A stretch of DNA of 64,000 nucleotides, taken from positions 1-64,000 of the forward strand of contig NZ_JAJFCK010000002.1 in NCBI RefSeq assembly GCF_020709055.1, given 5' to 3'. The notes beneath the pieces are model-generated. The model worked only from the letters and a program-made list of their open reading frames with translations. It did no database searches and was not told the DNA's origin. A program made the translations under genes and the position numbers. This stretch comes from Ruminococcus callidus. GTDB lineage: Bacteria > Bacillota > Clostridia > Oscillospirales > Ruminococcaceae. The stretch's first letter is position 1. Each line of letters starts with the position of its first letter. Below, one piece after another: positions 4,127 to 24,417 of the stretch.

Positions 4127-7100
4127 ATGAGAATGCACAAACGTAGGCAAGTAGGATTTCAATCTGGGAGAGATTTTCAGCTACAGGAAAAAAAGCACGT
4201 CCATGTTCATTTTTCTCAGCAAGTGGACGACTCCGGAAAGCTAAAAACAGGTGTACAAATTACACGCCAGCAAAATCAAGAAATTGGGAAATATCACGGC
4301 GTTTTTCATCGTGCTGCTTCTATACAGCATCACATCACCGGAGATGTTCCTAAGATTTTCCCTGACAATACCGTTGTATCTGCTGCAAAGAATGCCATGA
4401 AATTTACAGGACATACTGTTCTAGCAGCGGAAAATGCTGTGATTCGTCGAAAAGACCCAGCTCATGCAGATAATCGGCATTGGCATTTGCAATTTCAACG
4501 TATGCAAGATTCTACTGGAAATCAGCATACACAAGTTCATTTCATCCGAAAAGAAAATGAAAACCTCGGAAACACACATGGCTTATTCCATCGTGCAGCT
4601 TCCTTGCAGCATCGTATTACCGGAGATACTCCTAAGATCTTCTCTGATAGTGCTGCTGTATCTGCTGCGAAGAATGCCATGAAGTTTACAGGACACACCA
4701 TTCTGGCAGCTGAAAATGCTGTACTGCGACGTACTAGACCAGAATACGCTGATAACCGACATTGGCATCTGCAATTTCAACGCAATGCAGACAGCAGCGG
4801 AAAATTGCATACACAGGCGAGGTTTGTTCGTATAGAAAATCCTACAGTCGGTGAATATCACGGTGTATTACATCGCATTAACTCTATGCATCACCGTATC
4901 ACTGGTGATACGCCAACGATACTGCCTGATTCAGTTGCCTTTCAAACTGCAAAAAAAGCACTTCGATTTACAGGACATACAGCATTAGCTGTAGAAAACG
5001 CTTTTATACGGCGTTTTGATGCTGGTCATGCTGATAATCGACATTGGCAATTGCAATTGAAACGAACACAAGATCAAAATGGTGGATTTCACACTAAAAT
5101 GCACTTTGTGCGTACAGATGTTCCGCAATTGCAAAAAAGTCGTGGTGTGATACATAAAGCAGTCTCATTCCGTCACCGTATTTCCGGTGATATTCCATCT
5201 CTGACTAAACATCTGCAATCTCAACAACCAAAGACAAAGAAAGCTATTGTTGCAAAGGCAGCTGCACAAGGTGCGTGGGCAGATGTAAAATTAACTGCAA
5301 AAGCAGGAATAAATACTGCATTAGCCGCTGAAACCACAGCCTTAACAATCAAAGATATTGGCTGGTGTGAAGTCAAGCGTAAAATCGCTTATAAATATCA
5401 ACGTGACGTTTCCAATGTAGATGATGCAAATCACGGTCTTCTTGCCAGCGGCAAAATTGTAAAGGATGCAGTTGTTGGATTCCAGCGATTTCAGCGGCAA
5501 AAAGTTACTCTAAAGCAAGAACGTCAACGACTTGTACAGAAAAAGCAGCATACAATGCTGCTTGCGGAAAAAACAAATCAAAGCTTACAAAAGAGTGTTC
5601 ATCGCCAAATAGAAAAGAAAGCTGAATTTATCAGCCGGAAAAAAGATTTCCGCATATCCAAAAAGAATGGCACAGTTACGCCGCTTCAAAAAACTGCATT
5701 AAAAAGGCGAAAACAAGTCTATCGTTTTGAGAAAAAGAAGTATCAGAAATTCAAGCGTACTACTTACAGGATTCAGAAAAAAGAAACCAAGGCTTATTTC
5801 CTGCAAAAGAAGATCGTAAAATTCAGCAAGCCTAAACCGCTTATTTTTATGCCGATTAGCTATGCTGGAGCCCGTGCCAAATCTAGCAGCTGGCAAAAAG
5901 CTGTCAGTGCAGATGCTGACAATGATTTTATGCGATTAGCAGATGCCGGTGTTCGCACGGCAAGACGCTTTCAAAAATCACCCGCCCAAAAGACAAAAAA
6001 GGCACAGAAAAATCAAAAATCCCTACAGAAAAAATCCAGTCAAACGCAAGTCAAGTTAAAGCAGCAGGAAAGCAAATTAAAGCAATCCAGCAGCAAACAG
6101 CAGCAAAGAAAAAAGAAAGCGAACCACAAGAAAAGAACAAAAAAGAAAAGTAGTTTAAAAGAACGTTTTCGTCGTGGATTCCATAAGGGAATTGAAGAAG
6201 CCGCCAAAAAATTTATGATTCCTGCTTTACCTGTTTTATTCGGTGGTCTCATCTTTCTGGTTATTCTTGTACTGATTTTTGGTGTCTTTGCAAATTCCGG
6301 CTTTATTATGGGTACATATGCCGCTTTGGACGATTCTCTCTCCAAATCAGAAATGGTATACACCAATTTTGCAAATAACATGAATAAAAAGGTGCTTGCT
6401 GTTGGAAATGAATCTCTATGGAAAATAGGATTAAATCAACTGGGTGTTTCTTTGGAAATCACAGAGAATTATGATGACACTCCTACTGAATTCATCTTTG
6501 GACAATCCGCTGTATTTCCTGACACTCCGGCATATGATTTCAATCCCAATCAGTTGTGGAGTTTTCTCTGTGCTTATTATTATGACTTTGACGCATCAGA
6601 GAAAGCAAAAGATAACGAAGAAGATTTTGATGTACCTTACTGGGAATATGACTCCGACACTTACAAAATTATAAAAAAGCTATTTGAGTTGGAGTACACT
6701 TTTGATTACCGGTACGATAACGCATCCAGCTGGAGTGAATTAGGTACATACACATACGATTGGAAATTCCATTATGTGACTGGAAGTGGAACCGAAAATG
6801 GCTATCCTTACATCGATTTCAAAGCCATTCCAAATGACTTAAAAGACTTTGCAAAAGTAAAATCAAACCGCATTTATTACAATGCCGAAAATGGTGAAAT
6901 TCTAAATGCCAGAAAAAAATACAAAGCAACCGGCTGGTACTTACAAGATCAACGCTACAATGTGATTGATCCTTCCGGAAATGAATTGCCTTCATTCTAC
7001 ACACAAGATACAAACGCATTTCAGTATGATTACTCTTATACCGGTGGATATGGACGCTTCTATACATTTGAAAGATCAACCTATTGGATTCCCAGCAGCA

Positions 7101-14008: not shown

Positions 14009-17000
14009 ATGAAATACTACGGCAATCAAATCTGGAATGCAGCAACGCCAAGTATTCGAAAAGCTACGCTTTTAATGGACGAAGCTGCCTTTCGTATTTT
14101 ACAACAGCAGCTGGAACAATATCGATTAAACTATTATGCAGCCGAGAAAAACGGCAAAGTGAAAATGGTCATTAACTATAATGATTCTCACGATATTCAA
14201 AAATTGATTGGCAAAAAAACAGCTTCTCAAATTCATTGGTTTCCAAAATCAAGACATTATGTACCACCGGCTTTTAACATTATTGGAAATACCAAGTATC
14301 AAGAATTATCTCAAAAGAGTTATATTCGAGGTAACACAGACCTTGTTCTTCAAGTTGCCAAGCAATTAGAAGAACAAGGTATTTCTTTTTCAGGGAGAAT
14401 CTACAATCAAAATAGAGCTACCCTCACTGTACAGGATAAGGATCAAGAAAAGGTTCTTCGTTTCTATCATGATATTTCAGAAAAAAGAGCTGCACAGTAT
14501 CAAGATGCTGCTGCATTAGAAACTGTTGACATCTCCCTTCCCAATTTACCGCAACAAACATTTGACGAGATCCTCCCCTATCTAAAACAAACAGATATTT
14601 CATTCTCAGCACGTGCGGAAAAAGATCATTGCATTTTTTCCATTTCTCAAAAAGATACCGGTATCTTCTATCAAGCCTTAGTACAAGCAAAATCTCGTTC
14701 TGAATTTCATAAAAGTTTAAAAGAACTTGGATTTACAGAACAACAAGATGCATTTTTAGAGCCTTTTTCTGTTTTTCTTGCCACACAGGAAGCAGAAGGA
14801 AAATTAACATTAGATTATACAGCATATCTCAATCCAAATTACAGCAATCAACAATTACAAATGGTTTGTGACCTTTTTCAAGAGTATCACAAACAGTCCA
14901 TTACAGAACAAATTTCTGCGGACAATCCAGTATTGCAGAAATTACAACAACAAAAATCTCAATTTGACGCAGAAATCACCCTAAACAGCATTATTGGGAA
15001 CAATCCCTTTCAGCCAGAACAAAAGAATGCTCTAATCGCTGCCATTCAAATCGGCATTCCTCATGAATTATTGAAAAAAATCGATAACACTTATTCAGCA
15101 GAAACGATCAATGACTTCATACAAGTATATCAGACCTATGATATGCAAAAAATACAATCTTTTTTGGATTCACATCAGCCTGAAACTGACAGTCACTCAC
15201 AGGCACGGGAAAAAAATTCGCTTACTAAAGCATTTGATGAAATCAAAGAACGATTTGCACAAACTGAACAACAGGCTCTGTTTTTGGATCGCCTTGAAAA
15301 ATTTGTAGAGAAGAATCATATTACAAATAACATAATTTCTTCTGCTTTTGAAAAATCGCATGGTTTCCGTTCTGCATACGGCAATGAAAAATTACTAAGC
15401 AGTCGTATCTTTTTCGGGAGATTGCATCCAGTTTCAGAAGCAATTGAACATGCTGTTTCCAATAAAACAACTGTGATTCAGACCGAACCACAAAAAGCAG
15501 AACCAAAACCTACTGCTGAAAAAGAACCATCGTCTGTCACACAGGAAGACTTCGATGTACTTCGCACACTAGAACCTCGAAAAAGTATTTTGAATCTTAC
15601 CGAGGACGAACTTACTGCAATTCCAACATGGAAAGAGCGATTTCAAAAAGAATTGGCTGAAAAATCCCCTTTTTATCGATTGGAACAAGGAGAATGGAGA
15701 GATCAGGAAGCAACACAAATACCAATTCTTTCAATTCCTAGCCACGATGCAGATTTTCAAAGTGTCCGTGCCGATATAAAAAGCAGAAATATCGAACGAG
15801 GTTCTTTTACCAATACAGATACCGGCTGGACAATTCAAGTTAGCCGTAATGGATTAGAAGATTCCGTAAAATACGGACACCAACATCATGATAATGCTGT
15901 GTATGATATGCTTTACCAACTTCCCAAACTTGTTGAAGAAAGCATTTTCCTTGACAGCACTATTTCAGAAAAAAACAATAAAAATAAAGCAAACAACACA
16001 GCCTTTATGCACAAGCTATACGCTGTTTGCAAAATAGATGATCAGCCCTATCTTGCCAAATTAACCATAGAAGAATTTGCAGATGGGCAAAAAGATACAT
16101 TGAAAAGAATGTATAATGTTCAGGATATAAAAATAGAGCCACTTAGGCTCCTAGAGTTCACTGATAAACAGCTAGCTCGTTCAGTCCTAAATGACTCCAC
16201 TATTAGTATAGCAGATTTATTTACTGTTGTCAAGGAATTTGACCACGATTTCTACTTAAACCGTACTCCGCAAAAGGCTTCGGAACATACAATTCAAGCC
16301 GAGCCTAATATTCCTGTTCCAGATGAAATTACACCGGATTCCTCTATAGAAGAAAGCACGCCTCCGCCTATAGAAAAAAACACAGATTCCATTGAGGAGG
16401 ATACAGCTAGCCATTCTCAAAAATCAGAAGTAGCTTCATCGCCTGAAAAAGAGAAAAATTTCACTATCACTAATGAATCACTTGGCGAAGGCGGTTTAAA
16501 ATCAAAATTCAAGAACAATATCACTGCCGTGAAAACCTTAAAAACTCTGGAGCAAGAAAATCGTTCTGCGACAGATGCAGAAAAAGAAATCCTTTCAAAA
16601 TACGTCGGTTGGGGTGGAATTCCGCAAGCTTTTGATAAGAATAATGAATCTTGGAGTACAGAGTATACACAGCTAAAGGAATTACTTACGCATCAGGAAT
16701 ACAGACAAGCGAATGCTTCTGTTTTGGACGCATTTTATACTTCTCCTGTGGTAATTGATGGCATCTATGAAGCACTTGAAAATTTCGGTTTTCAAGGCGG
16801 AAATGTATTGGAACCAGCAATGGGTGTCGGAAACTTCTTCGGACGTATGCCGGAAGAAATGCAAAAAAATTCTCGGCTTTATGGTGTCGAGATCGACAGC
16901 ATATCCGGCAGAATCGCCCAGAAACTCTACCCCGATGCTGACATTGCAATACAAGGATTTGAAAAAAACAATTTTCAAAATGGATGCTTTGATGTTGCTG

Positions 17001-20000
17001 TAGGAAATGTCCCCTTTGGAGAGTTGAGTTTCAAAGATGACAAACATGGTACAACAAAACTGCACGACTATTTCTTTTCCGAAACACTGGACAAAGTAAA
17101 AGACGGCGGTATTGTGGCATTTGTAACATCAGCTGGAACGCTGGATAAACGTGATGAATCCACCAGAAAGGCATTAGCGGAAAAAGCAGACTTTATTGGA
17201 GCAATTCGCTTACCGGGTGGTAAAAATGGGGCATTTAAAAGCAATGCTGGCACAGAAGTCACAACCGATATTATCTTTTTGCAGAAAAACGAGCATAAAG
17301 TTCCCGATCCAGAAAAAGAAACTTGGATTTCTATTGGCGAAACGGATGAAAGTTTGCCAATCAATCGATATTTTGCCGAAAATCCTAACATGGTGCTTGG
17401 GACTGTTGTAGAAGGAAATAAGCTATATGGCAGCGGAACCATGGTTATAGCTGAAGATGGTGTTGATCTAAAAGAACAGATCTCACAGGCTGTATCACAA
17501 TTGTCAGCTACAATTTCGGATACAAGAACAAAAGAAGTATATGCAAAATCAGCAGACAGTACTGCTATCGAAATTCCATCTGTTCTTCGAAATTATAGCT
17601 TTTTTGCAGATGACAAAAGCGGAGAAATCTACTACAAAAAGCCTGATCAGGCGATTCGCTGGAATGGAAATGATTCTCCTTCCAAAAAGAAACGTATGGA
17701 AGCCTTTCTCACGCTTCGAGATGTTACAAGAGGAATTTTGCAGGCACAAGAAGAAAATTGCTCTGACACGGTTCTAACGGCATTACAGGGCAAATTAAAT
17801 CAGTCTTATGACACGTTCTATGAAAGCTTTGGCTTACTTCACAGTTCCTATAACACATCACAACTTTCAGATGATGTTTCCTTTCCCTTAGTTTGTGCAC
17901 TAGAGAGCAAATTTGAAAAAGAAAAGCTTATTGCAAAATCAGACCTCTTTACAAAACGCACCATTCAGCCGCCCAAACCAATTGAACACGTTGATACACC
18001 GCAAGAAGCTCTTGCATTATCAATGGCTGAAAAAGCGTGTGTTGACTTTGATTATATGCAAAAGCTGACTGACATTCCCAAGGAAGATATTGTATCAGCA
18101 CTGACGTTAGCAAAAAGCATTTATCCTGTTCCAGAATGCTCTGACGATGAGAAGATCATCTATCAAGAAGCATCTGAATATTTATCTGGTGATATTCGAA
18201 AAAAGTTAGATAATGCAATAGAAGCCGCAAAAAGCAATCCACTCTTTGAAGCAAACATTTCTGCATTGCAAGAAGTAATGCCTGAGCCCCTAAAAGCAGG
18301 CGATATTGATGTAAAAATCGGTGCTACATGGGTGGATCCCAAATATTATCAGCAATTTCTGTACGAAACACTGCATACGCCGCAATCGCTTCAGGCATCT
18401 GAGAGAGATTCGTGGATGAGAAAACTATTTGGAAAGAAATCCATTGCAATAGAATTTGCCGAAAATCAATGGCACATTTCTAATAAAGGGTCTGACCGTT
18501 CCGTAAGTGCTACACAAACTTACGGTACATCCAGTAAAAATGCTTATGAAATCATGGAGAACCTCTTAAATCTCCGTGAGACAAAAGTCTACAAGTCGGT
18601 GGGATACGGAGAAGAAAAGAAAAGCGTTTTAGATTTAGATGCCACAAGAGCAGCACAACGAAAAGCACAAAAAATAGAAGAATCCTTTGAATCATGGATT
18701 TTTCAAGATCCACAACGACGTGCAGATCTAGTAGACACCTACAATCGCAAATTTAATGCAATACGACCGAGAGAATATGACGGTTCTCACTTAACATTTC
18801 CGGGCATGAATGCTGGCATTCAGTTACACGGACATCAAAAAAATGCAATTGCCCATGCAATTTACGGCGGAAATACACTTTTTGCACACAGTGTCGGTGC
18901 TGGAAAAACCTTTGAAATGATTGCAACGGCAATGGAATCCAAACGTCTAGGCTTATGTAACAAATCACTTTTTGTAGTTCCAAATCATTTAACAGGACAA
19001 ATCGGCGACGACTTCCTAAAGCTTTATCCCAATGCCAATATTCTCGTGACCACCAAAAAAGATTTTGAGAAAAAGAATCGACAAGAACTTTTTGCAAGAA
19101 TTGCCTCTGGAAATTTTGATGCAGTTATAATAGGACACTCTCAACTGAAACATATTCCCCTTTCTCAAGAACGCCAAGAAAGACAACTTGAAGAACAAAT
19201 TCAGGATATTCTCTCCAGCATAGAACAACTGAAACATGAAAATGGTGATAGTTTTCAAGTAAAAGCTATGGAACGCACCAGAAAATCATTGCAAAAACAA
19301 ATTGAAACGCTAAAAGTAAAAAAACAAGATGATGTTATTCCATTTGAACAGCTGGGCGTAGACCGCATTTTCGTCGATGAAGCCCACGAATTTAAAAATT
19401 TATTCTGTGCGACAAAACTTCAAAATGTTGCTGGTATATCAAATTCTGCATCTCAAAAAGCATTAGATCTTTTTCAAAAGTGTCGGTACATGGATGAAAA
19501 AACAGGCGGCAGAGGCATTGTTTTTGCAACTGGCACACCTGTATCAAACTCTGTCACTGAACTACATACAATGATGCGTTATCTCCAGTATGATTTTTTG
19601 CAGGAAAAAGGACTACATCATTTTGATAGCTGGGTTTCGACTTTCGGCAAGCAAAAAACCGATTGGGAACTTGCTCCGGCAGGAAATAAATTCAAGCAGC
19701 GTACCAGAATCGCAAGCTATGCAAATATGCCTGAACTTACTAGTATGTTTAAGCAGTGTGCTGATGTAAAAACAGCGGATATGCTGCACTTAAATGTTCC
19801 AGAGTGTGAAATGCACATTGTCAATGTAGAGCCTACAGAACTTCAGCAAAAACTTGTTACAGAGTTGGCTGACAGAGCTGATGATATACAAGGTGGAGCT
19901 GTGGATCCGGAAGTAGATAATATGCTTCGCATTACCGGCGATGGGAGAAAAGTTGGTTTAGACCCCCGTTTGATTAATCCTGATTTTGAGGATAATCCTC

Positions 20001-21427
20001 AAACAAAATTAAATCAGTGCATAGATAATGTATACCGTATTCACCAAGAAACCGCATCAGACAAGCTTACCCAAATCATTTTTTGTGATTTAGGTGTTCC
20101 AAGAGGAAAGCCGGCAAAAACAGCAAAATCCCAATCTGATGAAGAAGAAATTATATCTGATTCCTTAGAAGAAAGCGGTGATTTCTGCATCTATGATGAC
20201 ATTAAGAAAAAGCTTATGGAAAGAGGAATTCCAGAAAAGGAAATTGCTTTTATTCACGATGCACCAACGGAAAAAGCAAAATCAGAACTTTTTGAAAAGG
20301 TTCGATGCGGCGATGTACGAGTGTTGATTGGTAGTACCGCCAAAATGGGAACTGGTACAAATGTTCAAGATCGCCTTGTTGCACTTCATGATCTTGATAT
20401 ACCATGGCGACCAGCTGATCTGGAGCAACGTCGTGGAAGAATGGTTCGGCAAGGAAATATCAACAAACAAGTACACCTATACCGCTATGTTACCAAGGGA
20501 ACATTCGATGCCTATAGCTATCAGACGTTGGAGGCAAAACAACGATTTATCAGCCAGATTATCACTTCTAAAACACCAGCTCGTACTTGCGAAGATGTTG
20601 ACCAACAAGCATTGTCCTACAGTGAAATCAAGGCTCTATGCACTGGTGACGAACGGATCAAGGAACTTATGGTGCTTGAATCCGAAGTCAAAGAATTAAA
20701 GTCCATGCAGTCTGAGTATCAAAATGTACACTATGATATGCAAGATAAACTTCAACGCTACCCTCAAACAAAGCAGCAGCTTGAATCTAGTATAGATGCT
20801 ATGAAAAAAGATTTGGAGCATTGCAAAAGTCTTCCGATTGATGAAAATACACATCTGCCAGCATTCAAAATAACGCTAGACGGAACAACGTATACAGATC
20901 GCACCGAAGCTGGAAAAGCATTAGAAAGCGTGTGCTGCAAGCTGATCGGCGAATCTAACAAACCTTTGCCAATTGGCGAATTACATGGTTTTCCAATCAC
21001 AATACGATTTGCACCAGATCAGAATTGCCTACAGGCAACATTGCAAGGTTCAAAGCCATACACAACAAACTTTTCCGTTTCTTTCCCAACAAATCTAAAG
21101 CATCTGGAAAGCCTGTTATTTTCATTAGATCAAAAAATTGCAGCAGCTCAAAACGCTCTAAACCAATTGAATTTAGATGCCAAAGAAGCTGAAAAAATTC
21201 TTGCTGAACCGTTTGCATCTGGAGATATTCTTCGAGAAAAGTCGGAACGTTTAACCACACTTCGAGATGATTTGAATCAAGAAGCAATGGAAGCTGCAAA
21301 AAGCGGAAATAAACCACAACGAACATTTTATTTTGAAATGGCAAAATTAAAGAAAAATGCAAGAACAATTTCAAAATCCACTTTGGAAAAAGCAGAAGGA
21401 AAGAAAAAGGCGGAATTTCTGGAATAA
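14009..21427 (+). CDS. Giant N6-methylase/SNF2-like helicase of the ICE
   Basis: A 2,472-residue protein of a type common in Firmicutes and Bacteroidota ICEs. The N-terminal 400 residues carry repeated small modules (GISFSGRIYN, DISFSARAEK). A methyltransferase-like domain has VLEPAMGVGNFFGR near residue 932 and NVPFGE near 1000, in place of the NPPF motif of N6-adenine methylases. The helicase part has SVGAGKTFEM near 1630 (motif I), VDEAHEFKNL near 1790 (DEAH box) and EQRRGRMVRQGN near 2140 (motif VI). The C-terminus is coiled coil. The probable role is DNA processing or protection from restriction during transfer; this is inference from the domains. Confidence 0.85.
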   Translation: MKYYGNQIWNAATPSIRKATLLMDEAAFRILQQQLEQYRLNYYAAEKNGKVKMVINYNDSHDIQKLIGKKTASQIHWFPKSRHYVPPAFNIIGNTKYQELSQKSYIRGNTDLVLQVAKQLEEQGISFSGRIYNQNRATLTVQDKDQEKVLRFYHDISEKRAAQYQDAAALETVDISLPNLPQQTFDEILPYLKQTDISFSARAEKDHCIFSISQKDTGIFYQALVQAKSRSEFHKSLKELGFTEQQDAFLEPFSVFLATQEAEGKLTLDYTAYLNPNYSNQQLQMVCDLFQEYHKQSITEQISADNPVLQKLQQQKSQFDAEITLNSIIGNNPFQPEQKNALIAAIQIGIPHELLKKIDNTYSAETINDFIQVYQTYDMQKIQSFLDSHQPETDSHSQAREKNSLTKAFDEIKERFAQTEQQALFLDRLEKFVEKNHITNNIISSAFEKSHGFRSAYGNEKLLSSRIFFGRLHPVSEAIEHAVSNKTTVIQTEPQKAEPKPTAEKEPSSVTQEDFDVLRTLEPRKSILNLTEDELTAIPTWKERFQKELAEKSPFYRLEQGEWRDQEATQIPILSIPSHDADFQSVRADIKSRNIERGSFTNTDTGWTIQVSRNGLEDSVKYGHQHHDNAVYDMLYQLPKLVEESIFLDSTISEKNNKNKANNTAFMHKLYAVCKIDDQPYLAKLTIEEFADGQKDTLKRMYNVQDIKIEPLRLLEFTDKQLARSVLNDSTISIADLFTVVKEFDHDFYLNRTPQKASEHTIQAEPNIPVPDEITPDSSIEESTPPPIEKNTDSIEEDTASHSQKSEVASSPEKEKNFTITNESLGEGGLKSKFKNNITAVKTLKTLEQENRSATDAEKEILSKYVGWGGIPQAFDKNNESWSTEYTQLKELLTHQEYRQANASVLDAFYTSPVVIDGIYEALENFGFQGGNVLEPAMGVGNFFGRMPEEMQKNSRLYGVEIDSISGRIAQKLYPDADIAIQGFEKNNFQNGCFDVAVGNVPFGELSFKDDKHGTTKLHDYFFSETLDKVKDGGIVAFVTSAGTLDKRDESTRKALAEKADFIGAIRLPGGKNGAFKSNAGTEVTTDIIFLQKNEHKVPDPEKETWISIGETDESLPINRYFAENPNMVLGTVVEGNKLYGSGTMVIAEDGVDLKEQISQAVSQLSATISDTRTKEVYAKSADSTAIEIPSVLRNYSFFADDKSGEIYYKKPDQAIRWNGNDSPSKKKRMEAFLTLRDVTRGILQAQEENCSDTVLTALQGKLNQSYDTFYESFGLLHSSYNTSQLSDDVSFPLVCALESKFEKEKLIAKSDLFTKRTIQPPKPIEHVDTPQEALALSMAEKACVDFDYMQKLTDIPKEDIVSALTLAKSIYPVPECSDDEKIIYQEASEYLSGDIRKKLDNAIEAAKSNPLFEANISALQEVMPEPLKAGDIDVKIGATWVDPKYYQQFLYETLHTPQSLQASERDSWMRKLFGKKSIAIEFAENQWHISNKGSDRSVSATQTYGTSSKNAYEIMENLLNLRETKVYKSVGYGEEKKSVLDLDATRAAQRKAQKIEESFESWIFQDPQRRADLVDTYNRKFNAIRPREYDGSHLTFPGMNAGIQLHGHQKNAIAHAIYGGNTLFAHSVGAGKTFEMIATAMESKRLGLCNKSLFVVPNHLTGQIGDDFLKLYPNANILVTTKKDFEKKNRQELFARIASGNFDAVIIGHSQLKHIPLSQERQERQLEEQIQDILSSIEQLKHENGDSFQVKAMERTRKSLQKQIETLKVKKQDDVIPFEQLGVDRIFVDEAHEFKNLFCATKLQNVAGISNSASQKALDLFQKCRYMDEKTGGRGIVFATGTPVSNSVTELHTMMRYLQYDFLQEKGLHHFDSWVSTFGKQKTDWELAPAGNKFKQRTRIASYANMPELTSMFKQCADVKTADMLHLNVPECEMHIVNVEPTELQQKLVTELADRADDIQGGAVDPEVDNMLRITGDGRKVGLDPRLINPDFEDNPQTKLNQCIDNVYRIHQETASDKLTQIIFCDLGVPRGKPAKTAKSQSDEEEIISDSLEESGDFCIYDDIKKKLMERGIPEKEIAFIHDAPTEKAKSELFEKVRCGDVRVLIGSTAKMGTGTNVQDRLVALHDLDIPWRPADLEQRRGRMVRQGNINKQVHLYRYVTKGTFDAYSYQTLEAKQRFISQIITSKTPARTCEDVDQQALSYSEIKALCTGDERIKELMVLESEVKELKSMQSEYQNVHYDMQDKLQRYPQTKQQLESSIDAMKKDLEHCKSLPIDENTHLPAFKITLDGTTYTDRTEAGKALESVCCKLIGESNKPLPIGELHGFPITIRFAPDQNCLQATLQGSKPYTTNFSVSFPTNLKHLESLLFSLDQKIAAAQNALNQLNLDAKEAEKILAEPFASGDILREKSERLTTLRDDLNQEAMEAAKSGNKPQRTFYFEMAKLKKNARTISKSTLEKAEGKKKAEFLE

Positions 21428-21466
21428 TAATCTCAGCATTGCTCGATCGATTTTTTCAAAAAGTTC

Positions 21467-21495
21467 TTGACAAACGGCATGATTTCGGGTATAAT
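21467..21495 (+). promoter_or_regulatory. Promoter of antitoxin RNA cassette 1
   Basis: A perfect sigma-A consensus: TTGACA at 21467-21472, 17-nt spacer, TATAAT at 21490-21495. The start of transcription should be near 21502. Confidence 0.9.
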
Positions 21496-21550
21496 AATAA
21501 TGAAGATAAGCTTTGACTTATCATATGAAGGCATCACGCCTTTGTAAAAA

Positions 21551-21652
21551 GCAGTGAGTCCTACTGTGAGTGGAACCGATAAGAGCAGTGAGTCCTACTG
21601 TGAGTGGAACCGATAAGAGCGGTGAGTCCTACCGTAAGTGGAAGCGATTAAA
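21551..21652 (+). repeat. Three 34-nt direct repeats, cassette 1
   Basis: Copies start at 21551, 21585 and 21619. Each has a stem NNGT/ACNN around the loop GAGTCCT, then an AGTGGA segment. Copy 3 changes CAGT/ACTG to CGGT/ACCG on both arms, a compensatory pair of changes. The 3' part of the loop (TCC) is complementary to GGA downstream, which is compatible with an H-type pseudoknot. Confidence 0.9.
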
Positions 21653-21654
21653 AA

Positions 21655-21682
21655 GGCTGCGGATACGTCCACAGCCTTTTTT
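21655..21682 (+). terminator. Terminator of antitoxin cassette 1
   Basis: The stem GGCTGCGGA / TCCACAGCC, with one C-A mismatch and loop TACG, is followed by six T. Confidence 0.85.
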
Positions 21683-21700
21683 ATTTATATCAGAAAAGTC

Positions 21701-21729
21701 TTGACAAATGCTAAGGCTTTGAGTATAAT
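21701..21729 (+). promoter_or_regulatory. Promoter of antitoxin RNA cassette 2 and toxN
   Basis: TTGACA at 21701-21706, 17-nt spacer, TATAAT at 21724-21729. Same strength and geometry as the cassette 1 promoter. It is the nearest promoter to toxN, which is presumably reached by read-through of the cassette 2 terminator. Confidence 0.9.
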
Positions 21730-21783
21730 AAAAACGGAGATAAGTTTCGACTTATTGTATGAAGGTTCTTTGCCTTTGTAAAA

Positions 21784-21885
21784 GTAGTGGACCCTACTAT
21801 GAGTGGGAGTTTTAAAAGCGGTGGACCCTACTGCAAGTGGGAGTTTTAAAAGCAGTGGACCCTACTGTGAGTGGGAGTTTTAAAA
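21784..21885 (+). repeat. Three 34-nt direct repeats, cassette 2
   Basis: Copies start at 21784, 21818 and 21852. The stems are TAGT/ACTA, GCGGT/ACTGC and GCAGT/ACTGT, all pairing around the loop GGACCCT, followed by AGTGGG. The loop CCC pairs with the downstream GGG, where cassette 1 has TCC and GGA, so this second pairing also co-varies between the cassettes. Confidence 0.92.
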
Positions 21886-21889
21886 ATCA

Positions 21890-21921
21890 AAGCTGCGATA
21901 AGAATATTATCGCAGCTTTTT
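21890..21921 (+). terminator. Terminator between antitoxin RNA 2 and toxN
   Basis: A perfect 12-bp stem, AAGCTGCGATAA / TTATCGCAGCTT, with a 5-nt loop and a T run. In characterised type III loci a terminator in this place keeps antitoxin RNA in excess over toxin mRNA. Confidence 0.9.
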
Positions 21922-21945
21922 CATTAGAAATAAAAAGGAGAAAAA

Positions 21946-22614
21946 ATGGAACAAAAACGACTACGGCTATACAAATTAGATATGAAATACATCCGTGATC
22001 TCGCTAAAAAAGATGATAATGTTCATTCCGTTTCACCACAAGTCGGAAAAGATAATCGTCCATTTGTGGGAATTATCATTGTATGCGACAATAAGAAATA
22101 CTGCATACCTCTGAGTTCACCAAAGCCAAAACATCAAAAAATGAAAAATGACATAGATTTTATGAAAATAAATGTTGATGGAAAATTACTAGGCGTCCTT
22201 AACCTCAATAACATGATTCCAGTTGATGAAAGATTTCTTAAGCCTGTTGAGCTACGCATTACCCGACAAGATTCTCCAGAAAGTACCCATTATAAAAAAA
22301 TGGCAGTAAAACAGCTGAACTGGTGTCAGCAAAATCAAGATTTAATTGTTGCAAAAGCAAATAAACTGTATCATCTAGTTACCGATACGCCGGATAAAAT
22401 GCGTATGGTCACTAAACGTTGCTGTGATTTCAAAAAGCTTGAAGCTGTTCTGGAGAAGAAATTGCTCTCTCATCAAGAGCAACATGAACAGCCTTCAAAG
22501 CCGTCTTCTTTTACATTTTCTAGCAAGCAGAGAAAACAAGTTCAGTCTGCTGTGCAGCAGAAAGAATCAGATAAACCTCACACTCAGGATAAGAAAAGAA
22601 AACCATCACTATGA
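21946..22614 (+). CDS. toxN: ToxN/AbiQ-family type III toxin (endoribonuclease)
   Basis: A 222-residue protein of the ToxN family. Seen in order: an N-terminal strand with MKYIRDL, FVGIIIVCDNKKYCIPLSSPK (residues 40-60, SSPK at the position of the TSPK active-site loop), GVLNLNNMIPV (83-93), YKKMAVKQLNWCQQN (116-130), KANKLYHLV and CCDFKKLE (159-166). Family members are sequence-specific RNases held inactive by repeat RNA and act in plasmid maintenance and abortive phage infection. Residues after about 175 form a Lys/Gln-rich tail not usual in the roughly 170-residue ToxN. AAAAAGGAG lies 5 nt before ATG. The class (ToxIN, CptIN, TenpIN) is not settled by eye. Confidence 0.88.
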   Translation: MEQKRLRLYKLDMKYIRDLAKKDDNVHSVSPQVGKDNRPFVGIIIVCDNKKYCIPLSSPKPKHQKMKNDIDFMKINVDGKLLGVLNLNNMIPVDERFLKPVELRITRQDSPESTHYKKMAVKQLNWCQQNQDLIVAKANKLYHLVTDTPDKMRMVTKRCCDFKKLEAVLEKKLLSHQEQHEQPSKPSSFTFSSKQRKQVQSAVQQKESDKPHTQDKKRKPSL

Positions 22615-22952: not shown

Positions 22953-23936
22953 TCATTGTGTTATCACGTTTTCCTTGTTGCTTATTGGATTACCCTCAGT
23001 TTTTGATGCAGTAATATGTTTTTGATTTTCACCAAAAAATGCACATTGCCAATCCATGTAATTACAAAGATTTTCCCAAGTAACATTTGCTTCGGAAAGG
23101 GCGGCAGGATACAAGTAAATTGTCATTTTCTTTGATACAAACTCGTCCTGAGATTTAGAGGCAAAAGAAAAAAGTGTTTCGTGTACAACATCTTCAAGAG
23201 TTCCATCTTTTAGCCCCGCTCTACCAGTCCCAATTACTGGTATTGCAATAGGTTCTGTATGTCCTTCTCTTGCAAGAAAATCCCAAAGTCCAACCAAAGC
23301 CTTCGTCACATTTTCCATAGTTACATTTTGTGGCTTACCTGTTTTGCTTACATCCGCTACGGCAAGAAAATAGAAATGCTGTCCTTTTATTGTAACTTTT
23401 GCCACTGTTCCAATATCGTATCGATTACAATTCGTTTTTTTTCTATCACTTAATTTTTCGTATTGACTGGGAAAATACTCGTCAAGAGATCTTTTGATTG
23501 CTGCATCTAACTCAGAAAAATCTGTACCATAATGCTTTCTTTGAAATTGACCTTGTATGCTTTTTATACTTATAAAGTCTCCGCTCATTGTAGTGTCAAA
23601 TGTGGTGTTGGTAGGAATAACTACTGCAGAATCCTTCAATGTAAGTATGTCGCCTATGCAAAAAGACAGGAGCGTATCTTTTGATCCCAAGTAAGCAGAA
23701 TGAGATAACGGCTCCTTATGTAAAAGGATTGCAATGAGCACAACGACCAATAGAAATGACTTTAAATGATTTCTAAAAAAAATCATCAATATGGTACTAT
23801 CAAATAAAGCTTGTTCAATTTCACACAAAGAATAGTATCCACCTAATATTGCAAACATCTTCGATAAAAAATCTATCGGCTTCCGTTTTAACGGAATTAT
23901 AATACTATTATTAATCTTAAATGCCAAGTTCTTCAT
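22953..23936 (-). CDS. Membrane-anchored macro-domain protein (type II Thoeris effector, ThsA-like)
   Basis: A protein of about 327 residues. Two hydrophobic segments lie near residues 22-38 and 57-73 (SFLLVVVLIAILL). A macro domain follows from about 85: GDILTLKDSAVVIPTN is its first nucleotide-binding loop, and IPVIGTGRAGL its glycine-rich second loop near 245. This membrane-plus-macro layout with a TIR gene immediately upstream is that of type II Thoeris, in which the TIR enzyme makes an ADP-ribose-type signal (His-ADPR) that triggers the macro protein. The start is uncertain: ATG 23936 overlaps the TIR gene by 20 bases; ATG 23948 and longer forms are possible. Read on the minus strand in an operon with the TIR gene. 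Confidence 0.75.
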   Translation of the reverse strand: MKNLAFKINNSIIIPLKRKPIDFLSKMFAILGGYYSLCEIEQALFDSTILMIFFRNHLKSFLLVVVLIAILLHKEPLSHSAYLGSKDTLLSFCIGDILTLKDSAVVIPTNTTFDTTMSGDFISIKSIQGQFQRKHYGTDFSELDAAIKRSLDEYFPSQYEKLSDRKKTNCNRYDIGTVAKVTIKGQHFYFLAVADVSKTGKPQNVTMENVTKALVGLWDFLAREGHTEPIAIPVIGTGRAGLKDGTLEDVVHETLFSFASKSQDEFVSKKMTIYLYPAALSEANVTWENLCNYMDWQCAFFGENQKHITASKTEGNPISNKENVITQ

Positions 23937-24417
23937 AAACACTATCATCGTAGTAATATGCTCCTGTTTTGCCTTCTCTATGGAATTGCTCAAATGTGAA
24001 TGGCCAATTTTCTAAAGCATATTGAAGTATTTTTGAATTAAAACTAATGTGAATAGCTAACGAATCTCTTATTAATGCAGGACAATACTCCCGATCTAAA
24101 CTTCGCTTTCCATTTAGATTGACAACAATACAGGGAATTTCTCTTTTAATTGCTTGTTCAATTTCCCATCTTACATACTTATACAAGTATTTTGTATGTT
24201 CCCCCACTAGGAGCACAAACACTTTCGTGTTTCTAAATCGTTCTTGAAGACCAGCCTTGATGGAAGCTTCGCTTTTATCATAGATATTGTTTATGTCATG
24301 AGCATCATAAAAGTTAAAAGATGAATGATCGTTCTGTTTCCACGCTTTCATCAAATAATAATATCGAAGATCATTATCTGCGTCCATAGAAACATATACC
24401 TTATTTCTGTATGCCAT
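23917..24417 (-). CDS. TIR-domain NADase (DUF1863/ThsB-like, type II Thoeris sensor)
   Basis: A 166-residue single-domain protein. The N-terminal strand KVYVSMDADND matches the TIR-like MTH538/DUF1863 pattern. KVFVLLVGEHTKYLYKYVRW is followed by the likely catalytic glutamate E85 (WEIEQAIKREIPCIVV), in the helix where ThsB proteins carry theirs. ThsB senses phage and turns NAD into a signal nucleotide. GAAAGGAAA precedes the ATG. Transcription should start from the TTGACT/TATAAT promoter just upstream on this strand. Specificity for the His-ADPR product is inferred from the macro-domain partner. Confidence 0.82.
   Translation of the reverse strand: MAYRNKVYVSMDADNDLRYYYLMKAWKQNDHSSFNFYDAHDINNIYDKSEASIKAGLQERFRNTKVFVLLVGEHTKYLYKYVRWEIEQAIKREIPCIVVNLNGKRSLDREYCPALIRDSLAIHISFNSKILQYALENWPFTFEQFHREGKTGAYYYDDSVYEELGI

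Follow-up and report, generated by a model that had tools for sequence, protein, structure and literature searches.

The 64-kb stretch of Ruminococcus callidus DNA analysed here (the window) carries a type III toxin-antitoxin locus of the ToxIN/AbiQ kind on an ICE-like element. Two antitoxin cassettes of about 235 bp each, an outer (c1) and an inner one (c2), lie upstream of a single 222-aa open reading frame (Table 1). Each has an exact promoter, a leader, three 34-nt units and a terminator fold. Both the type of the locus and the presence of two complete, diverged cassettes for one toxin, proposed in an initial annotation made from the sequence, are thus confirmed. The cassettes are identical at 149 of 222 ungapped positions. 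The two-cassette layout is also present in R. callidus ATCC 27760 (locus L007), which was sequenced separately; this speaks against an assembly artefact.

Table 1. Features of the two-cassette locus, in window coordinates
Feature	Position	Strand	Evidence and remarks
ORF of 2472 aa (SNF2/helicase and methylase-like) of the mobile element, just 5' of c1	14009..21427	+	last 1 kb 98.0% identical in L007
c1 promoter, TTGACA-N17-TATAAT	21467..21495	+	12/12 match, 17-nt spacer
c1 leader, two hairpins	21505..21542	+	read from sequence; second hairpin present in RNA fold
c1 antitoxin repeats, three 34-nt units, pseudoknot helix 2 UCC/GGA	21550..21651	+	repeat parsing, cassette alignment, model R1
c1 intrinsic terminator	~21650..21683	+	fold of 21641-21690, -18.0 kcal/mol; T-run after stem
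c2 promoter, TTGACA-N17-TATAAT	21701..21729	+	12/12 match, 17-nt spacer
c2 leader, two hairpins	21739..21776	+	read from sequence; alignment with c1
c2 antitoxin repeats, three 34-nt units, pseudoknot helix 2 CCC/GGG	21783..21884	+	repeat parsing, cassette alignment, model R1
c2 intrinsic terminator, upstream of toxin gene	~21891..21925	+	fold of 21881-21930, -18.6 kcal/mol
ToxN/AbiQ-family endoribonuclease toxin gene, 222 aa	21946..22614	+	PF13958, E 1.6e-45; PDB sequence match, E 3.8e-15; AF2 fold match
Toxin C-terminal tail common to R. callidus element L007	22413..22614	+	66/67 residues identical; AF2 confidence low from about residue 182

A consensus scan listed neither terminator on the plus strand, and both are placed by RNA folds. 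R1, a covariance model of the repeats trained on 47 cassettes (some of them stand-alone), had only two matches in the window, the repeats of c1 and c2 (E 8.5e-27 and 1.7e-25), and both cassettes were among those 47. The comparison with Rfam models that the initial annotation had suggested as a check yielded no credible type III match, either for the whole window at gathering thresholds or for the 541-nt locus at E ≤ 10. Sixteen weak matches of the latter, far under their gathering scores, were rejected as chance.

The ToxN-family identity of the protein, on which that annotation depended, is borne out by Pfam (ToxN_toxin), by PADLOC, which assigns it to AbiQ, by the match to solved ToxN sequences in PDB and by structure comparison. 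NCBIfam gave no match for it at E ≤ 0.001. With the AF2 model (mean pLDDT 81.9), Foldseek found ToxN of B. thuringiensis, P. atrosepticum and E. coli as well as AbiQ (4ato, 2xd0, 7d8o and 4glk; E 7e-11 to 5e-9). The CptN structure 4rmo came fifth, behind these four entries (E 2e-3), so a CptN-type toxin was rejected as the closest relative. The locus shares with CptIN the type III organisation, the occurrence in gut Clostridia and a related fold, but the fold match to CptN is weaker than that to ToxN, and CptIN repeats are longer according to PMC5086642 (cited here and below for its available sections). In an alignment counted by hand, T52, S53 and K55 of the P. atrosepticum ToxN active site correspond to S57, S58 and K60 of the window toxin, but G34 and R38 stand in the places of Y29 and K33; the roles of the active-site residues are described in PMC5086642.

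As in ToxIN and AbiQ (PMC5086642), a ToxN-family RNase of the same fold is combined with tandem pseudoknot repeats upstream, here two arrays of three 34-nt units, with an intrinsic terminator (an RNA fold) between repeats and toxin, and with a mobile-element setting. The systems in PMC5086642 have one promoter, one array and one toxin, whereas here we find two full antitoxin units, and toxin-less units in relatives. This departure from one promoter and one array per toxin is the variant feature; the layout is not among the search criteria listed in section 7 of that paper.

A Thoeris pair adjoins the toxin gene on the minus strand (window 22953-24417), consisting of ThsA with a Macro domain, ahead of which a hydrophobic stretch was noted by eye, and of ThsB with a TIR domain. 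The Thoeris genes beside the toxin are a defence cluster within the element.

Conserved pseudoknots in the repeats

In the alignment of the 47 cassettes, c1 and c2 included, the pseudoknot helix S2 is paired in every cell (100%) for units 1 and 2, and in 95.7% of them for unit 3. Its first pair is U-A, C-G or G-C in 47/47 rows for units 1 and 2. For unit 3, where about six rows stand one column out, it is U-A in 24, C-G in 17 and U-G in 6, the U-G rows appearing to be misaligned by one column. The covariation score reached 0.285 against a shuffled mean of 0.151 (0/500 shuffles as high), and slid versions gave at most 0.072. Two other counts did not exceed the shuffles: pairs changed on both sides (7 against 6.1; 183/500 as high) and further pair types (15 against 18.9; 500/500 as high).

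In general, both stem 1 and the pseudoknot stem covary across the 47 cassettes. Between c1 and c2 both sides of the helix are altered and the fold is kept, and a toxin-less cassette of genome G012 includes, as read from its sequence, a CUC/GAG unit in which a middle-pair change is compensated. These compensatory changes in both stems, as expected of ToxIN, indicate that the repeats probably fold as H-type pseudoknots.

U-A and C-G units occur mixed inside single cassettes of one toxin (e.g. L037 and L040), and the helix 2 pair was rejected on this ground as the specificity determinant on its own. It follows that more than this pair must set specificity, and the toxin might be bound by c1 as well as by c2.

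A mosaic toxin gene and its sister element

Between the window and L007, the final 1 kb of the flanking gene is 98.0% identical, c1 92.3% and c2 84.7%. Within the toxin gene, identity is 60-71% over codons 1-155 and 96.1% over codons 156-222. The core of the window toxin shares 143/155 residues with toxin P0002 and 144/155 with P0003 (92-93%) against 93/155 (60%) with L007; for the tail, the corresponding values are 25/66, 22/57 and 66/67. Judged by sequence, the toxin gene is a mosaic with a sharp breakpoint near codon 157. Toxin tails also recur with different cores elsewhere, as though an element kept its tail and exchanged the core.

For both P0002 and P0003, the called ORF starts 5' of the toxin's own start, within c1-like sequence. 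That of P0002 begins MEAIKKAADISTAFFI, and the c1 terminator reads VEAIKKAADTSTAFFI; the extension of P0003 reads through a c1-like last repeat and terminator. The c1-like cassettes of these two are thus deduced at the protein level, from the ORF extensions. Among the 16 nearest toxins with parsed cassettes, the units are nearer to c1 in 15, and L007 alone is nearer to c2. There, c1 stands at the same place and is followed by a stretch of about 950 bp, in which two ORFs lie on the minus strand (one of them NikA-like), then by a c2-like cassette of two repeats and the element's own toxin. Thus, c1 sits under different toxins in the window and in L007 and, by the types of their repeats, the two elements carry both antitoxins but different toxins.

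Since the toxin core is kin to toxins behind c1-like cassettes and c2 resembles the L007 cassette, c1 is probably the kin-matched (cognate) type for the resident toxin, and c2 an additional one, of the type that belongs to the toxin of the sister element. The initial annotation had regarded the outer RNA as a possible spare, and the kinship of the toxin probably inverts these roles. It had also suggested that the antitoxin was duplicated as a whole unit. This finds no support, as the c1 and c2 types accompany different toxins elsewhere, and the origin of c2 as a simple local copy of c1 was rejected because of this kinship. The meeting of two modules, with toxin replacement or recombination, would fit better than plain duplication.

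Toxin identity correlates with cassette similarity more widely (Mantel r 0.52, 0/2000 permutations as high) in 46 non-redundant pairs read with a strict repeat parser, which missed the c1 of L007 that other listings show. The 46 were kept from 66 paired cassettes by collapsing toxins at least 85% identical, by leaving out redundant loci according to a list made by hand, and by dropping L028 (broken toxin). A loose parser, which mis-phased units and took up many chance repeats, gave r 0.20 (26/2000 as high). The correlation could reflect joint inheritance only.

It is c2, not c1, that holds the canonical position directly 5' of the toxin, where it would be co-transcribed with it. Hence c2 might be the working antitoxin and c1 a chance-kept remnant of a module whose toxin was lost, for which tandem modules (as in L062) and a broken second toxin (as in L074) offer possible routes. 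We consider this unlikely: the resident core shares 92-93% of its residues with toxins that follow c1-like cassettes, and in the window as in L007, c1 keeps exact promoter hexamers, pairing and the terminator stem.

Cassettes in other loci and without a toxin

The layout of two antitoxins for one toxin, initially put forward as new, is not unique. At least two cassettes of this kind are present in 6 (L007, L043, L045, L046, L062 and L074) of the best 80 toxin loci out of 150 confirmed stretches, several of them with short flanks, and toxin-less rows also exist. L062 consists of two complete modules, and L046 has a weaker third R1 match (E 1e-9). Additionally, L074 holds a second, broken toxN (4996-5708) that shares its C-terminal tail with the intact copy preceding it, L043 further toxin-less repeat units of about 36, 54 and 41 nt (1570-2250), and L045 a GCTCACC-type array ahead of an ORF with a nucleotidyltransferase domain (2340-2892).

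With R1, we found 23 cassettes in 14/396 genomes of the family and 13 in 11/345 genomes of the order, 9 of the latter being new; the two genome sets overlap. Out of the 32 cassettes, 13 have a ToxN ORF directly downstream, 18 do not, and one is cut by a contig end (G350). One paired cassette (G420) precedes a broken toxin. For three of the 18 unpaired ones (G001, G383:C42 and G420), a toxin lies farther on behind a second cassette, that of G420 being the broken one, about 1.7 kb away. The cassette of G662 is followed by just 520 nt to the contig end, and a second tandem set, of about 60-nt units of another type, was seen after it (L185); that of G066 is weak (E 6e-8, promoter 10/12).

Contig G383:C2 (L146) holds five consecutive toxin-less cassettes, and G276 (L145) two R1 cassettes that flank a third one, made up of units of about 42 nt. 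PF13958 had no match in 7 of the 11 checked genomes with stand-alone cassettes (G012, G276, G429, G196, G090, G662 and G066) and matched in G383, G418, G190 and G420.

Exact promoters accompany 14/18 stand-alone and 8/13 paired cassettes, and terminators 16/18 and 11/13, the labels having been assigned by hand from the survey; both features lie outside R1, which misses decayed cassettes and was partly trained on stand-alone ones, so that intactness is overstated. For exact promoters the background, counted with the cassettes, was 0.0097 per 175 nt; a terminator was present in 53 of 1600 random windows. These counts show many stand-alone cassettes to be intact at the level of sequence, and decay of others is compatible with the survey. 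The intact ones may also be remnants too young for decay.

The best paired match of stand-alone cassettes has a similarity of 0.86-1.0, in many cases 0.86-0.90. Given the median of 0.92 for paired cassettes and the mean of 0.86 for toxins 60-70% identical, most of these matches single out no one toxin. The five cassettes of L146 are nearest to those of L074 (0.88), L090 (0.90), the first toxin of L062 (0.92), L058 (0.94, tied with L061) and the second toxin of L062 (0.97). The toxins of these five matches are 41-56% identical to one another, a figure independent of unit parsing.

In G012 (L144), of the same genus as the nearest genome, a related element (large gene 66% identical over 1342 aa) has a cassette but lacks ToxN; in the place where ToxN would be (5124-6457), the cassette is followed by a small ORF and by a nucleotidyltransferase gene of AbiEii type. 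The cassette of G418 precedes rimP, nusA and infB genes, as assigned by Pfam. Zeta toxin genes were noted beside cassettes in L146 (5914-6915) and L046 (2316-3089), and a HipA-like gene in L145 (5789-6943).

In viral contigs, none of 31 candidate stretches was confirmed by tblastn, and one repeat pattern had no exact match. Toxin relatives below 60% identity appear in 2 phage and 146 plasmid records, and no cassette DNA was found in the phage and plasmid records searched. Spread by phages or plasmids of the searched collections is therefore not supported.

Possible roles of the additional and stand-alone cassettes

With moderate confidence, we interpret the locus as a ToxIN-type III system with two antitoxin types for one toxin, in which c1 is the cognate antitoxin, c2 that of the sister toxin, and stand-alone cassettes are trans-acting antidotes. 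Each cassette would be its own transcription unit with a predicted RNA of about 180 nt. ToxIN toxins cleave the repeat precursor and have their active sites occupied by the pseudoknots (PMC5086642); by analogy, ToxN of the window would cut the precursor and single pseudoknots would fill the toxin active sites. The toxin mRNA would probably come from read-through of the second terminator. The c1 RNA, made from a separate promoter, would act on the resident toxin (toxin A), and c2 would add immunity to that of the sister element (toxin B). With both antitoxins kept, each element should tolerate the toxin of the other and could take up another toxin core through recombination. Cassettes that stand alone, and rows lacking a toxin, would supply trans-acting antidote RNAs, retained or gathered against the type III toxins of other elements.

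The mixing of unit types within single-toxin cassettes and the intact pseudoknots of both c1 and c2 would also suit a simpler arrangement, in which the two RNAs neutralise the same toxin and the second cassette only raises the dose or buffers expression. We regard this as rather improbable, as it explains neither why genomes without ToxN have stand-alone cassettes nor why c1 and c2 are kin to different toxins. Moreover, antitoxin specificity is high for the tested pairs described in PMC5086642. That stand-alone cassettes are sponges or regulators, or serve the zeta, AbiEii, HipA or nucleotidyltransferase genes adjoining L046, L144, L145, L146 and L045, is very improbable, for the neighbours differ each time, and the repeats retain a pseudoknot of ToxI type and resemble those of ToxN-paired cassettes with a similarity of 0.86-1.0.

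Antitoxin repeats without a toxin have a precedent in the pseudo-ToxI and hijacked ToxI of phage PhiTE. Toxin-less repeats can suppress ToxN there, and a single repeat failed in one assay (PMC3475682, available sections). The PhiTE locus is a phage locus with one array, activated by expansion in escape mutants, whereas we observe units of promoter, leader, repeats and terminator in bacterial elements or chromosomes, with several types side by side. The cassettes also resemble anti-addiction modules and orphan antitoxins, in which an antitoxin of the host or an element could blunt an incoming toxin (PMC12548467 and PMC12654330, in their available parts). For type III, the available text of PMC12654330 counts 26 orphan toxins without mention of an orphan antitoxin, and 3096 of its 3099 orphan antitoxins belong to the types that it names.

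The ToxIN kind is known, and the multiple and stand-alone antitoxin cassettes appear to be new: no report of them was among the papers listed in searches of open-access literature, an earlier mention in the 2012 classification paper (gks231) being possible. The type III searches described in PMC5086642 took toxins as their starting point and thus had no means of revealing stand-alone antitoxins. Antitoxins without toxins would have been missed by any such toxin-first search.

More tentatively than the reading of the locus itself, we propose that gut Clostridia may keep banks of antitoxin units, of several types, up to five in a row and in some genomes without ToxN, as an RNA immunity to the toxins of rival elements. 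The window and its R. callidus sister, with antitoxins A and B in both and different toxins, would then be a reciprocal-immunity pair. Related genomes hold toxin-less units, either single or up to five in succession, as though they were stockpiling such immunity. If stand-alone cassettes neutralise foreign ToxN, they would amount to an RNA antidote repertoire in gut bacteria and their mobile elements, one that would help to decide which elements and abortive-infection systems enter, persist or are lost. What anti-addiction does in nature could thereby be addressed experimentally by means of short RNAs, and for ToxN-ToxI specificity the A/B pair is a natural test case.

The leaders give a hint as to how rows of cassettes arise. 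Between adjacent cassettes of L074, L046 and L043, leaders are 91-99% identical but units 68-74%. In other adjacent pairs the leaders are 51-84% identical (76% for the window pair), and the median between loci is 68%. This suggests that cassette rows may grow by recombination through the leaders.
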